A stretch of 58,034 nt of DNA from Actinomycetota bacterium. Lineage in GTDB: Bacteria; Actinomycetota; Humimicrobiia; Humimicrobiales; Humimicrobiaceae. This document shows, in pieces, positions 5,006 through 8,637 of the stretch. The notes under the pieces are model-generated. The model searched no databases. It had not been told where the DNA came from and was given only the letters and a program-made list of their open reading frames with translations. Each line of letters begins with the position of its first letter. Positions within the stretch are counted from its first letter, which is position 1. Position numbers and translations under genes: made by a program. Location: positions 1-58,034 of the forward strand of contig JAQVDY010000011.1 in the NCBI GenBank assembly GCA_028698215.1. The letters are read 5' to 3'.

Positions 5006-5525
5006 ACCAATAATAAATAGAAACCATTTCCCAGACTACCCCAAGCAAAAACAAGCCCGCAGACAATGATATTATAGTAATAGACATCGTACGGGGCTTA
5101 AATTTATAAAAAGAAAAATATTCTCCATAGCTTAACATCATCAACCTGTAAGCAGTTTCTACTGACACCAAAAAAATAACATCGCCAGGTATGTTTTGGG
5201 CATGCCTAATAGTGCCGGTAAACAAAAAAATAATTATAAAAAACCCAGTTATAAAGCTCATGGGAAGCGTAGTCTTAAGATAACCCAGCCCAAAGTAACC
5301 AAGAGTGGAAAAGAGGTTACCGAAGAAGATTATAAGAAAAATATACAGTGGGGCCATCCCCTGGCTGTACTGGCGTATTCCAAAAAAATTCTGAAGAACC
5401 CTAAATTTATCAATTATGAATAAGGATGGGTTCTGCCAGAAGTAGAAAAACAGGTACCCTGCTAATGCCCCTGCTGAAGCCAGGATTATAGCCAACACCA
5501 GTATCCTGTTATATTTTTTTATCAT
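5004..5525 (-). CDS. Multi-pass membrane protein of unknown function
   Basis: 173 residues with about five hydrophobic segments (roughly 8-28, 58-78, 86-106, 112-130, 148-170). The sequence GYFGLGYLKTTLPMSFITGF is faintly reminiscent of SpoIIM-type membrane proteins, but the family's diagnostic motifs are not evident and I do not assign it. Its start codon overlaps the stop of the upstream HD-GYP gene (ATGA type), implying translational coupling and a partner role with that sensor. Confidence 0.7.
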   Translation of the reverse strand: MIKKYNRILVLAIILASAGALAGYLFFYFWQNPSLFIIDKFRVLQNFFGIRQYSQGMAPLYIFLIIFFGNLFSTLGYFGLGYLKTTLPMSFITGFFIIIFLFTGTIRHAQNIPGDVIFLVSVETAYRLMMLSYGEYFSFYKFKPRTMSITIISLSAGLFLLGVVWEMVSIYYW

Positions 5526-6766
5526 ACCTGCCTTCTGGCTAAAACTTTGATCATAGCCTCCGTAACTTCCTCATCAAATTGGGTTCCTGAATTCTTTTTT
5601 AGCTCCTCAATAGCTTCAGTTTTAGTAAGGGCCCTGGTATAAGGCCTGTCTGTAGTCATAGCATCATAAGAGTCAGCTACACATAAAATTTTAGCAAATA
5701 ATGGTATTTGATTCCCTTTTAGTCCCCGGGGATAGCCGCTGCCATCAATCTTTTCATGATGATACAATATGGCAGAGGCAGCATCCTTTAAGAAAGTTAT
5801 CTCCTTTACAATTTCGTACCCTACTTCTGGATGTTTTTTTACTTCCTGCCAATCTTCTTCACTCAAAACAGTAGGTTTATTTAAAATGGATAAATCAACC
5901 TGTATTTTCCCTATATCATGTAAATTTGCCAGATTCTTAATTATTTCAATATCATATTCATTAAGCTTCATTTCCCTGGCCACCGCCTCGCTGTAAGTAG
6001 CTACTCTTATGGAATGGCCTGCAGTATAGACATCCTTTGCCTCCATTATCTTTACAATCTGTAAAATACTGTTTAACAGAGCTTTCCTTTCCTTGATCCT
6101 TAGAAGATAAGTATACTGTGCAATTATTAGAGGCAGCGATGTAAACAACAGAGTAAAAGGCCCATATGCAGAGTACAAGAAAGATATGGCCAAGGCCATC
6201 AAAGTCAAGAATATATGGAAAGGTATGAGCCAGGCAAAGTTAAAAACCCATATATTTAAGAAATTTGCAGATTCGCTTATAGATATGGCCCCAGTAGTCA
6301 AAGCAGTGTTTAGTATGAAAAATATAAATGCTGATAAGAAAATAACCCCGATATTTTTTGGAGATAGGAAATTATTGCCGGACCGGTCAAACCAAAATTC
6401 AAATATTATGCTGGCCGCAGCAATGGATATAAGGTACTGGCCAGCGTTAAAAAAGTGCTTATAATAAGGAGTTTTCCTTACGAATTCCTTAATATTAAAT
6501 ACTGAAATAATGGTAACCAGGCAGGCAGTAGAAGGACCAAAAAGAATCAGGCTGGCCAAGGTAATACCAAAATTAACTGATACGCTGCCAGTCTTAGGGA
6601 GTGGAGACGAAAGGTTATCTGACACAAATACCAGAAAACCAAACAACCCCACTCCCAACCAGGAAACGCTACGATAGCTTATAATTACATAAACCAACAA
6701 GGCTATGCCAATTATAAACACAGCGTGAACATAGAGCTGTAGAATCAACTTATTAGTTTTGCTCAC
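5522..6766 (-). CDS. Membrane-anchored HD-GYP phosphodiesterase
   Basis: 414 residues from a GTG start with AAAGG 11 bases upstream. The first 220 residues form about six to seven transmembrane segments, probably a membrane sensor. Residues about 230-410 are a complete HD-GYP domain: HDIGK (His283-Asp284), paired His336-His337, and GSGYP at 342-346, followed by DSYDAMTTDRPY. All metal ligands look intact, so active hydrolysis of cyclic di-GMP is expected from knowledge of the family. No GGDEF partner is in the window. It lies downstream of the CpaE-like/HTH/small-peptide genes on the same strand and could be co-transcribed. Confidence 0.88.
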   Translation of the reverse strand: MSKTNKLILQLYVHAVFIIGIALLVYVIISYRSVSWLGVGLFGFLVFVSDNLSSPLPKTGSVSVNFGITLASLILFGPSTACLVTIISVFNIKEFVRKTPYYKHFFNAGQYLISIAAASIIFEFWFDRSGNNFLSPKNIGVIFLSAFIFFILNTALTTGAISISESANFLNIWVFNFAWLIPFHIFLTLMALAISFLYSAYGPFTLLFTSLPLIIAQYTYLLRIKERKALLNSILQIVKIMEAKDVYTAGHSIRVATYSEAVAREMKLNEYDIEIIKNLANLHDIGKIQVDLSILNKPTVLSEEDWQEVKKHPEVGYEIVKEITFLKDAASAILYHHEKIDGSGYPRGLKGNQIPLFAKILCVADSYDAMTTDRPYTRALTKTEAIEELKKNSGTQFDEEVTEAMIKVLARRQV

Positions 6767-6835
6767 TAGTTTTGTTTACCTTTTAATTCAAATATAAAAA
6801 ATTATACCAAAACAAGGCGATTTAATATAATCTTT

Positions 6836-6907
6836 CTACCATCTTACTGTAGAGCAAATACCAACCAATGATCCTAATACGATCAATACTCTCATTAACT
6901 TCTTCAT
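6836..6907 (-). CDS. Small hydrophobic peptide, copy 2 (23 aa)
   Basis: Reading frame MKKLMRVLIVLGSLVGICST followed by VRW. A GGAGG site lies 8 bases upstream of the ATG. Lys2, Lys3 and Arg6 are followed by a hydrophobic stretch from residue 7 to 17, so it may insert in the membrane or act as a secreted or signalling peptide. It is identical in DNA and protein to the copy at 6943-7014. No family is recognised. The gene is too short for usual gene finders. Confidence 0.65.
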   Translation of the reverse strand: MKKLMRVLIVLGSLVGICSTVRW

Positions 6908-6942
6908 TGTTTTCACCTCCCTTTCTTTTTTAAATATCTTTT

Positions 6943-7014
6943 CTACCATCTTACTGTAGAGCAAATACCAACCAATGATCCTAATACGATCAATACTCTC
7001 ATTAACTTCTTCAT
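6943..7014 (-). CDS. Small hydrophobic peptide, copy 1 (23 aa)
   Basis: Upstream member of the tandem pair, with the same 23 residues and the same GGAGGTGAAAACA leader. A longer overlapping frame (7060 back to 6836) exists in another register, but it has no better ribosome binding site and cuts across both copies, so the short frame is preferred. It follows the 52-residue membrane protein by 32 bases and is probably in the same transcript. Confidence 0.65.
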   Translation of the reverse strand: MKKLMRVLIVLGSLVGICSTVRW

Positions 7015-7046
7015 TGTTTTCACCTCCTCCTTTAAACTTATCGCTG

Positions 7047-7205
7047 TTAACCACTTTCATACCAGGCTTTCAAAATATGTAGATATTCCACTATTTGGTC
7101 AAAAAAGATCAGAACCAGTATAGTTATTATTAGTATCAATATTATAAAAATAGATGCTTTTTCCCAAAAGGTAAGGCCTCTTTTTTCCTTATTATCCCCT
7201 TTCAT
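7047..7205 (-). CDS. Small single-span membrane protein (52 aa)
   Basis: A 52-residue frame starting MKGDNKEKRG, with a charged N-terminus, one transmembrane helix (residues about 17-35, FIILILIITILVLIFF core) and a short tail ending KAWYESG. The ATG has GGGGAG 6 bases upstream. It sits 9 bases after the double-HTH gene, so it is part of that operon. No family recognised; size and topology fit an accessory subunit or a small regulator of a membrane machine. Confidence 0.7.
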   Translation of the reverse strand: MKGDNKEKRGLTFWEKASIFIILILIITILVLIFFDQIVEYLHILKAWYESG

Positions 7206-7214
7206 ATCACTCCC

Positions 7215-7607
7215 CTAAATGCTTTTCTGGGTCCTTCTTTCAATAAACTCTTCAATACTGCTCTGGGGAATTCTCCAGGAACTCCTCCCTTCTCTTATCT
7301 TGAACCCCTTAAGGTCTCCGGTTTTTAAAAGACTCCAAATATTATCCACGGAAAGTTTCAAAATTTTTGCTACCTGTTCTGCAGTATATAGGACAGGAGC
7401 TTCTTCTCCGGCTGGTGAGGCTAATTCCTCTTTTCCTATAAAGTTATTCAAGAATTCCTCTAAATCAGTTTCATTTATCCTTATGGCTTTACCCAGCCTT
7501 ATAGCTGGTAATTTTTTCAACATGACCATTCTTATTATCTCTGATTCACTAATCCCCACTAGCTCCGATACTTCACTGATGGTATATAATTTTTTTTCCT
7601 GTTCCAT
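7215..7607 (-). CDS. Protein with two tandem excisionase/MerR-type HTH domains
   Basis: 130 residues. Two winged-helix HTH_17-like modules are visible, residues about 7-55 (YTISEVSELVGISESEIIRM, then RLGKAIRINETDLEEFL) and about 73-125 (YTAEQVAKILKLSVDNIWSL, then GRSSWRIPQSSIEEFIE). Such modules are found in phage excisionases and small DNA-binding regulators. There is no phage or integrase nearby. The start lies directly after the stop of the CpaE-like ATPase, indicating coupling. The two domains could bind paired sites or bridge DNA; autoregulation through the upstream palindrome at 8749-8780 is possible but unproven. Confidence 0.82.
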   Translation of the reverse strand: MEQEKKLYTISEVSELVGISESEIIRMVMLKKLPAIRLGKAIRINETDLEEFLNNFIGKEELASPAGEEAPVLYTAEQVAKILKLSVDNIWSLLKTGDLKGFKIREGRSSWRIPQSSIEEFIERRTQKSI

Positions 7608-7608
7608 T

Positions 7609-8637
7609 TTAAATAATCATTTCTTCCATAGAGTATAGTTGCTGCTGCATATCAGGGAATCCCTGAATGGTTTGATCCTGATTTATGATAGGAATCCATC
7701 CCCTCAAATCTATGTTTAGTTCCCTTTTTAAGTTTTTTTTCTGGCTTTCATCTGCAGGCGCCCTGTTTATAACAGCTTTCTGGTATTGCTGTTGAGGTAA
7801 ATACTTCAATAGTTTGTTTGCCCTGCCAACCGCCCCCATATTTGGGGTTAGAACCAGTAGCAGCTTAGTGGAAATATTGATCATCTCCAGTACATTGTTT
7901 TGATAACTATAGGGAAGATCAACTACTATGTAATCATATTTTTTCCGGGCAGAGTAAACCATTTCATCTATCATATCTACGGTAATCTGGTCACTCTGTT
8001 CAAGAGTTAATGGTGGCTGTAATATATCTATATTTAATTCCTTTAGCTGATAAATAGATTCCCATAAGGATTGTGGACTTTTTTCAGTATTCTTAATAAA
8101 TATCCCCATGTTTGGTATTTCCGGCAGGTTTAACCTAAATGCTAAATCAGTTTGTCCTTCCCCAAGGTTAAAATCAATTAGTAATACCTTAATTTTTCCC
8201 AGGTTGGCCATATAATAGGCAATGTTTAATGCTAAGCTGGTTTTACCAACTCCTCCCTGTACTGAAAATAAAGAAGTTACCTGCTGGTTAATAACCCGGT
8301 AGTTTTCCTTTTCACTTTCCAATCTTTTTATTATATCTAGAATATTGCTTAGATGTGCCCAGCTATTAAGCTCTTTTATATATATGTTTCCGTCTTTGGC
8401 TTTGCTTTTACCCGCAACGATCAATTCACACTGGGTATTTTCAGTAATATATTTCTTTATATTATATAACTGAGGTATATCTTGGGTAATTATTATATAT
8501 TTTGGCATATATTCCTGTATTATGGATATTATATGGTTTAAATTTGTTTGTACCAGAATATTAAAATTTTTTATATCTATATTATGTATTCTACTAGCTA
8601 ATTCCTGGTTTTTGGTTATTATTAAAATAAATTCCAT
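7609..8637 (-). CDS. CpaE/TadZ-like ParA-family ATPase with receiver-like N-domain
   Basis: 342 residues. Residues 1-105 look like an atypical receiver-type domain, and residues about 120-340 a ParA/MinD-type ATPase. The P-loop is VQGGVGKTS at 126-134. The signature lysine normally preceding GG in MinD/ParA is Gln here, as in atypical TadZ/CpaE proteins. LLIDFN (Asp155) and YIVVDLP are the other nucleotide motifs. CpaE/TadZ proteins place type IV pilus or Flp machinery at the pole; no pilus genes are in view, so the partner is unknown. It leads the operon with the double-HTH protein. Confidence 0.8.
   Translation of the reverse strand: MEFILIITKNQELASRIHNIDIKNFNILVQTNLNHIISIIQEYMPKYIIITQDIPQLYNIKKYITENTQCELIVAGKSKAKDGNIYIKELNSWAHLSNILDIIKRLESEKENYRVINQQVTSLFSVQGGVGKTSLALNIAYYMANLGKIKVLLIDFNLGEGQTDLAFRLNLPEIPNMGIFIKNTEKSPQSLWESIYQLKELNIDILQPPLTLEQSDQITVDMIDEMVYSARKKYDYIVVDLPYSYQNNVLEMINISTKLLLVLTPNMGAVGRANKLLKYLPQQQYQKAVINRAPADESQKKNLKRELNIDLRGWIPIINQDQTIQGFPDMQQQLYSMEEMII

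Follow-up and report, generated by a model that had tools for sequence, protein, structure and literature searches.

Twin micropeptide genes beside a membrane HD-GYP gene in an Actinomycetota bacterium: candidate precursors of a tiny pheromone

The window analyzed here, a 58,034-nucleotide stretch from an Actinomycetota bacterium of the family Humimicrobiaceae, carries two identical 23-codon genes 5' of a gene for a membrane HD-GYP c-di-GMP phosphodiesterase. These micropeptide genes are real and conserved, their linkage to HD-GYP genes extends across the phylum, and in one family of relatives, termed f46, the C-terminal tail of the peptide covaries with the sensor domain of the adjacent enzyme. 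Based upon these features, we propose with moderate confidence that the peptide, which resembles a signal peptide, is cut to give a tiny pheromone sensed by the neighboring HD-GYP protein, as a peptide signal and its receptor would be the simplest single account of the data.

Twin micropeptide genes and their orthologues in Humimicrobiia

The two genes reside on the minus strand within a tandem repeat. A repeat search placed its 88-bp perfect units at 6940-7027 (copy 1) and 6833-6920 (copy 2), in agreement with the sequence-only reading, and these form the perfect core of a longer direct repeat with 100-nt copies (6928-7027 and 6821-6920; 95% identity) and a period of 107 bp. Copy 1 of the micropeptide gene spans 6943-7014, with its ATG at 7014 and its stop ending at 6943, while copy 2 spans 6836-6907, with its ATG at 6907 and its stop ending at 6836. 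Both would encode MKKLMRVLIVLGSLVGICSTVRW, copy 2 being identical to copy 1. The ribosome-binding site previously noticed before each copy is present in both as GGAGGTG located 6-7 nt 5' of the ATG (GGAGGAGGTG at 7021-7030 for copy 1 and GGGAGGTG at 6914-6921 for copy 2). The minus-strand gene order is a CpaE/MinD-like ATPase (7609-8637), a two-domain excisionase-type HTH protein (7215-7607), a 52-aa single-TM ORF just 5' of the peptides that several Humimicrobiaceae also have (7047-7205), the two peptides and the HD-GYP gene (5522-6766). An extended -10 promoter-like sequence, TGGTATAAT (6801-6809), lies past the stop of the last peptide and before the HD-GYP gene begins; it was recognized by eye and was not picked out by a generic promoter scan. 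Since TGNTATAAT-like sites, likewise read by eye, occur at the same place in most Humimicrobiaceae, the HD-GYP gene probably has a promoter of its own. Elsewhere in the window, a plus-strand frame with tandem GSSAA repeats was encountered at 208-510.

By combining a DNA search with a C-terminal pattern search, the micropeptide frame was found in 16 of 40 genomes of the class Humimicrobiia, with 1-3 copies in each. The frames of these relatives end in VRW* and occupy the same locus position as in the window, and the reversed C-terminal pattern, used as a control, yielded zero matches in any genome. Reading the DNA 5' of HD-GYP orthologues added further orthologues with the variant ends ANVRW, SAVRW and TSVRW, such that most genomes of the class having the neighboring HD-GYP gene share the frame, at the same position and with its ribosome site. 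Among named relatives, Candidatus Humimicrobium is near the window's organism, and Candidatus Hakubella, from another family of the class, exhibits the same gene arrangement. When the C-terminal pattern was searched across 397 genomes of the phylum, a single match arose outside the class (G260), and this was rejected as chance because it fell in a long frame and no small gene was present there.

The sequence-only reading had held that the short frame is real and had proposed both a copy-number search among relatives and a comparison of synonymous with non-synonymous changes. Both analyses have now been performed and they uphold the claim, as the frame is kept in relatives and pN/pS is about 0.29. 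Peptides of the class are either 23 aa (MKKLYRVLIILGSLIGICSTVRW type) or 20 aa (MAKFFKMVLKMVGFGSTVRW type) long, and their pooled pairwise pN/pS equals 0.295 (17 distinct genes) and 0.285 (12 distinct genes), respectively. The window gene differs from that of its nearest relative by 6 synonymous and only 1 non-synonymous changes. By these comparative measures, the two tiny frames are genuine genes under purifying selection. Because the two copies are identical inside G000 and identical inside G002, yet only 88% identical between these genomes, the tandem copies have likely been homogenized within genomes by concerted evolution, which had been anticipated alongside recent duplication. An assembly artefact was ruled out as a source of the tandem copies, given that independent genomes also carry them.

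A phylum-wide peptide family with a constant HD-GYP partner

The window peptides give nothing over cut-off against Pfam, NCBIfam and PADLOC models. The earlier statement that they have no recognized family is thus correct for these databases, but similar peptides do form a family that spans the phylum. A profile of the window sensor domain detected relatives in 41 of 297 Actinomycetota genomes, and just 5' of most of these lies a frame of about 24 aa with the same layout as the window peptide: a basic start, a hydrophobic core, small residues (GGA) and a short basic-aromatic end (e.g. MKTKIIVLLTSLAALVLGGGAGWRW and MKRVFAVLATLAAMFLAAGAHARW). When 28 such peptides were built into a profile, 45 of 297 genomes gave hits at E<=0.01, some of them in families that had not contributed to the profile. 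In 40 of the 44 genomes checked, a membrane HD-GYP gene starts no more than about 300 nt after the peptide; in the other four, two peptides sit at contig ends and two (G127 and G244) have no HD-GYP gene downstream. The genes 5' of the peptide vary between families and the excisionase-type HTH neighbor is not constant over the phylum, leaving the HD-GYP gene as the constant partner. Peptide profiles built from the class only and from the other families show no significant cross-detection (best E about 0.5-0.7), and therefore the one-family claim rests on position, layout and shared partner. On these criteria, the window peptides belong to an unrecognized family of putative membrane peptides of about 24 residues distributed across the Actinomycetota. 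The sequence-only reading, partly supported as a whole, had missed both this constant partner and the variable tail found in other lineages.

Several variations upon this theme were observed. Some tails outside f46, such as SYVVSR and LKIPTQ, depart from the aromatic-basic rule. In one genome (L177 of G083, minus strand), tandem copies carry unlike tails, ...GAHFKW and ...GAQFKW. Orphan copies also exist that have no HD-GYP gene downstream or lie away from any such gene (genomes G016 (C52), G017 (C157), G008 (C8) and, as a second copy, G062; loci L135:19-90, L136:3952-4020, L137 near 2795 on the minus strand and L170:1260-1334 on the plus strand). Family f4 matches the HD-GYP profile weakly (E 1e-12 to 1e-21), and the GYP motif is missing from some of its proteins. 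At three f4 loci (L175, L176 and L181), the protein following the peptide has no clear GYP motif and is itself followed by a response-regulator-like frame; consequently, the output of f4 may differ.

The window's partner protein (414 aa; minus strand) is the proposed receptor. Its N-terminal membrane sensor domain (6107-6766) matches MASE9 of Pfam with 35.2 bits against a cut-off of 24.3, and its catalytic HD_5 (HD-GYP) domain (5564-6055) scores 129.8 bits. The HD and HHExxDGSGYP motifs are intact, with HD and HHE..GYP invariant, which identifies the protein as a MASE9-HD-GYP phosphodiesterase. Sensor and catalytic domains are about equally conserved in the window's family (0.59 vs. 0.67). The sensors of the window lineage and of f46 are homologous (hhalign probability 99.3, E=3e-20, 214 columns). 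A search of PDB sequences with the sensor domain gave no match. An AlphaFold model of the window sensor (pLDDT 82.5, pTM 0.82) predicts a fold like that of the ECF S-components RibU, ThiT and BioY, to which Foldseek assigned probabilities of 0.96-1.00 and TM scores of 0.44-0.57 at weak E values of 0.05-0.7. ECF S-components are membrane proteins that bind small vitamins. A literature search, thin on subscription journals, found no peptide-sensing HD-GYP or MASE9 proteins, and one review on c-di-GMP inputs does not mention pheromones. Among the flanking genes examined, there is no dedicated processing, modifying or export gene (ComQ, AgrB) beside the peptide.

We also encountered a candidate new regulatory RNA around the peptide frame in other Actinomycetota families (L145, L147, L151, L157, L161, L164, L166, L170 and L178). 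The leader contains a conserved AGCGGAGCGG and a hairpin with TAGCGG in its loop, and a rival hairpin over the ribosome site shares one strand with the former. An inverted repeat of 11-21 bp pairs a site 5' of the leader with one just past the peptide stop, so enclosing the peptide frame in a long-range stem, and its stem sequences have changed between families with the pairing kept. No Rfam family matches these leaders. RNAalifold returned no consensus pairs from the leader alignment, probably because MAFFT misaligned the stems and the alternative hairpins have a strand in common. In the window lineage, the long-range stem does not exceed shuffles in most loci, neither a structured leader nor a c-di-GMP-II riboswitch was found, and Rfam detected nothing relevant in the window. 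In Candidatus Hakubella, a c-di-GMP-II riboswitch (L093:4087-4171, plus strand; 54.4 bits with a gathering threshold of 53.5) lies just 5' of two micropeptides and an HD-GYP gene.

Peptide tail and sensor domain in family f46

Of the 27 f46 genomes, 23 carry the peptide. Codons 1-20, which close with GGA, hardly vary between genomes, in contrast to four hypervariable residues at the C-terminus. In the 24-aa forms, tail positions 21, 22 and 24 measure 2.0-2.9 bits and position 23 is always K/R. The tails include IWKW, VWKW, IWKG, VWKY, AWKM, MWRM, WFRA, WFRL, SFRW, SLRW, SFKM, NFRM, QFKW and MYRV, among others. Across 17 genomes of this one family, tail similarity correlates with sensor identity after accounting for a single clock gene, gene X (partial Mantel r=0.414, P=5e-5; 20,000 permutations), or for the catalytic domain (r=0.373, P=2e-4); its correlation with the catalytic domain itself is weaker (r=0.226, P=0.006). 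Among pairs of genomes with at least 90% identity in gene X, those with near-identical tails (SFRW/SLRW, WFRA/WFRA and IWKW/VWKW) have sensors that are 74-84% identical, as compared to 35-57% for those with different tails; the WFRL/WFRA pair is lower, with a sensor identity of 56%. Similarly, fixed tails accompany a conserved sensor, as family f20 exhibits sensor identities of 0.91-0.97 at gene X identities of 0.85-1.0, vs. about 0.43 in f46.

In the G407/G408 pair, the locus is 93-99% identical outside the tail and sensor. Nucleotide identity starts at 0.96 upstream, reaches 0.99 in the leader and 0.98 in codons 1-20, falls to 0.59 in the tail and to 0.67 and 0.63 in the sensor, and returns to 0.93 and 0.94 in the catalytic part. 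In G412/G413, the catalytic part has diverged as well, so some exchanges spanned the whole HD-GYP gene. The most variable stretches of the f46 sensor include the link between helices 1 and 2 and the loop near residues 131-150, and the catalytic motifs are intact in the f46 proteins that could be read end to end. Taken as a pattern of sequence variation, a tail and a sensor changing in step suggests a signal and its receptor. The tail of the window lineage is nearly fixed as [TSNA]VRW, which is too constant for the co-variation test to speak to that lineage. Protein X is a conserved protein of about 220 aa (IEEIHVLA...) with no Pfam match, whose gene in several families has hpf on one side and the peptide locus on the other (L178:706-1467, L179, L201 and L161).

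Competing explanations and parallels to known systems

The main rival explanation, which we consider unlikely, is that the micropeptide never leaves the membrane and regulates the HD-GYP protein as a small subunit whose tail touches the sensor. Its signal-anchor-like sequence and constant gene pairing would both be expected of such a subunit, small membrane regulators beside their partners are common, and direct contact would also yield co-variation of tail and sensor. A packed helix should covary with its partner as well, but residues 1-20 of the f46 peptides are nearly invariant while the membrane helices of the f46 sensors fall to 25-45% identity. A subunit therefore explains the pairing, but not the fixed helix. 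Furthermore, the GGA ahead of the variable tail resembles a cleavage site, and extra copies exist away from HD-GYP genes, though these would be compatible with a subunit. MgrB and AcrZ are tiny single-helix proteins of this kind, each with one membrane partner, and for them neither an invariant helix against a diverging sensor nor a hypervariable tail after GGA would be expected. Less probable still is a cis-acting leader peptide whose translation, or stalling near the stop, attenuates the downstream HD-GYP gene. The frame does lie directly 5' of that gene, in other families it sits inside the structured leader with its long-range stem, and in f4 there are terminator-like hairpins after the stop, as judged by eye. 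This reading is weakened by the orphan copies lacking a downstream HD-GYP gene, by tandem copies that each have their own ribosome site and, in the window lineage, by a promoter-like TGNTATAAT ahead of the HD-GYP gene and by the failure to find the long-range stem; the hypervariable final residues of f46 also argue against it.

The sequence-only reading had offered signals, membrane modulators and toxin-like peptides as possible functions, among which the comparative evidence favors signals. The toxin-like option would correspond to a type I toxin silenced by RNA structure or antisense RNA. Such toxins (Ibs, AapA and Hok) are small, hydrophobic and found in repeats, all of which applies here, and in other families the hairpins sequestering the ribosome site and the end-to-end RNA pairing recall toxin messages. 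Conversely, the ribosome sites of the window lineage are strong and open, comparable RNA structure was not seen there, PADLOC gave no match, the position beside one enzyme is kept across the phylum, and the peptide combines purifying selection on its leader with a co-varying tail. We regard a toxin as very improbable on these grounds and the earlier suggestion is not supported. That the repeat arose by recent duplication of non-coding DNA and contains its frame by chance would fit the short length and the lack of database matches, but the frame, stop and ribosome site are conserved across genera with a pN/pS of 0.29, reducing the probability of this explanation to almost nothing.

The pheromone reading would operate as follows. 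Translation of the 23-codon gene would yield a precursor from which a very short signal is derived. In this precursor, the first ~19 residues (a basic start, a hydrophobic core and the small residues GICS) would function either as a signal peptide or as an anchor in the membrane. A cut behind the small residue would free the C-terminal tail, about TVRW in the window, for secretion. If the f46 pattern carries over to the window lineage, the tail would presumably be bound by the sensor domain of the adjoining HD-GYP protein, altering c-di-GMP breakdown either upward or downward, while the homogenized tandem copies would raise the dosage of a single signal. A tail of four residues after cleavage would be unusually short, which counts against a pheromone.

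Among known systems, one close parallel is ComQXPA of Bacillus, in which a short precursor likewise adjoins a membrane receptor and a conserved propeptide carries a hypervariable C-terminal signal, the ComP receptor having a hypervariable N-terminus (PMC4008528). ComX also carries a C-terminal tryptophan, as does the window tail. Unlike ComP, a histidine kinase, the receptor here would be a c-di-GMP phosphodiesterase; the precursor is about 24 aa rather than 52-73, and there is no adjoining ComQ-like modifying enzyme. The agr systems of staphylococci and others similarly pair a polymorphic peptide (AgrD) with a polymorphic sensor domain (AgrC) encoded by adjacent genes, but here there is no AgrB, no thiolactone ring is expected and no two-component kinase is involved. 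The traits shared with both systems are the placement of a precursor gene beside that of a membrane sensor (40 of 44 genomes) and, in f46, a conserved leader with a hypervariable C-terminus and a sensor varying with it, while HD_5/HD-GYP stands in place of the histidine kinase and response regulator. Rgg-SHP and ComRS pheromones derive from 20-23 aa precursors with an MKK-hydrophobic layout and a C-terminal signal, which is re-imported to bind cytoplasmic regulators. In contrast, the constant neighbor here is a membrane enzyme, and no cytoplasmic Rgg or TPR-repeat receptor was found beside the peptide.

It is quite possible, though we suggest this more tentatively than the pheromone reading itself, that these loci represent a new signaling class, in which tetrapeptide-size pheromones from precursors of about 24 aa are received by an S-component-like domain fused to HD-GYP, thus linking cell density or pherotype to c-di-GMP, and that at least one family has private pherotypes. 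If so, peptide cell-cell signaling and c-di-GMP would be joined in one protein without a kinase relay, and the reach of such signaling would extend to a phylum whose members are mostly uncultured. MASE9 and its relatives, an orphan sensor domain, would gain a natural ligand, and pherotype specificity would be directly testable using four-residue peptides. The case also demonstrates that a gene this short, though unannotated, can be recognized through its partner and its pattern of variation.
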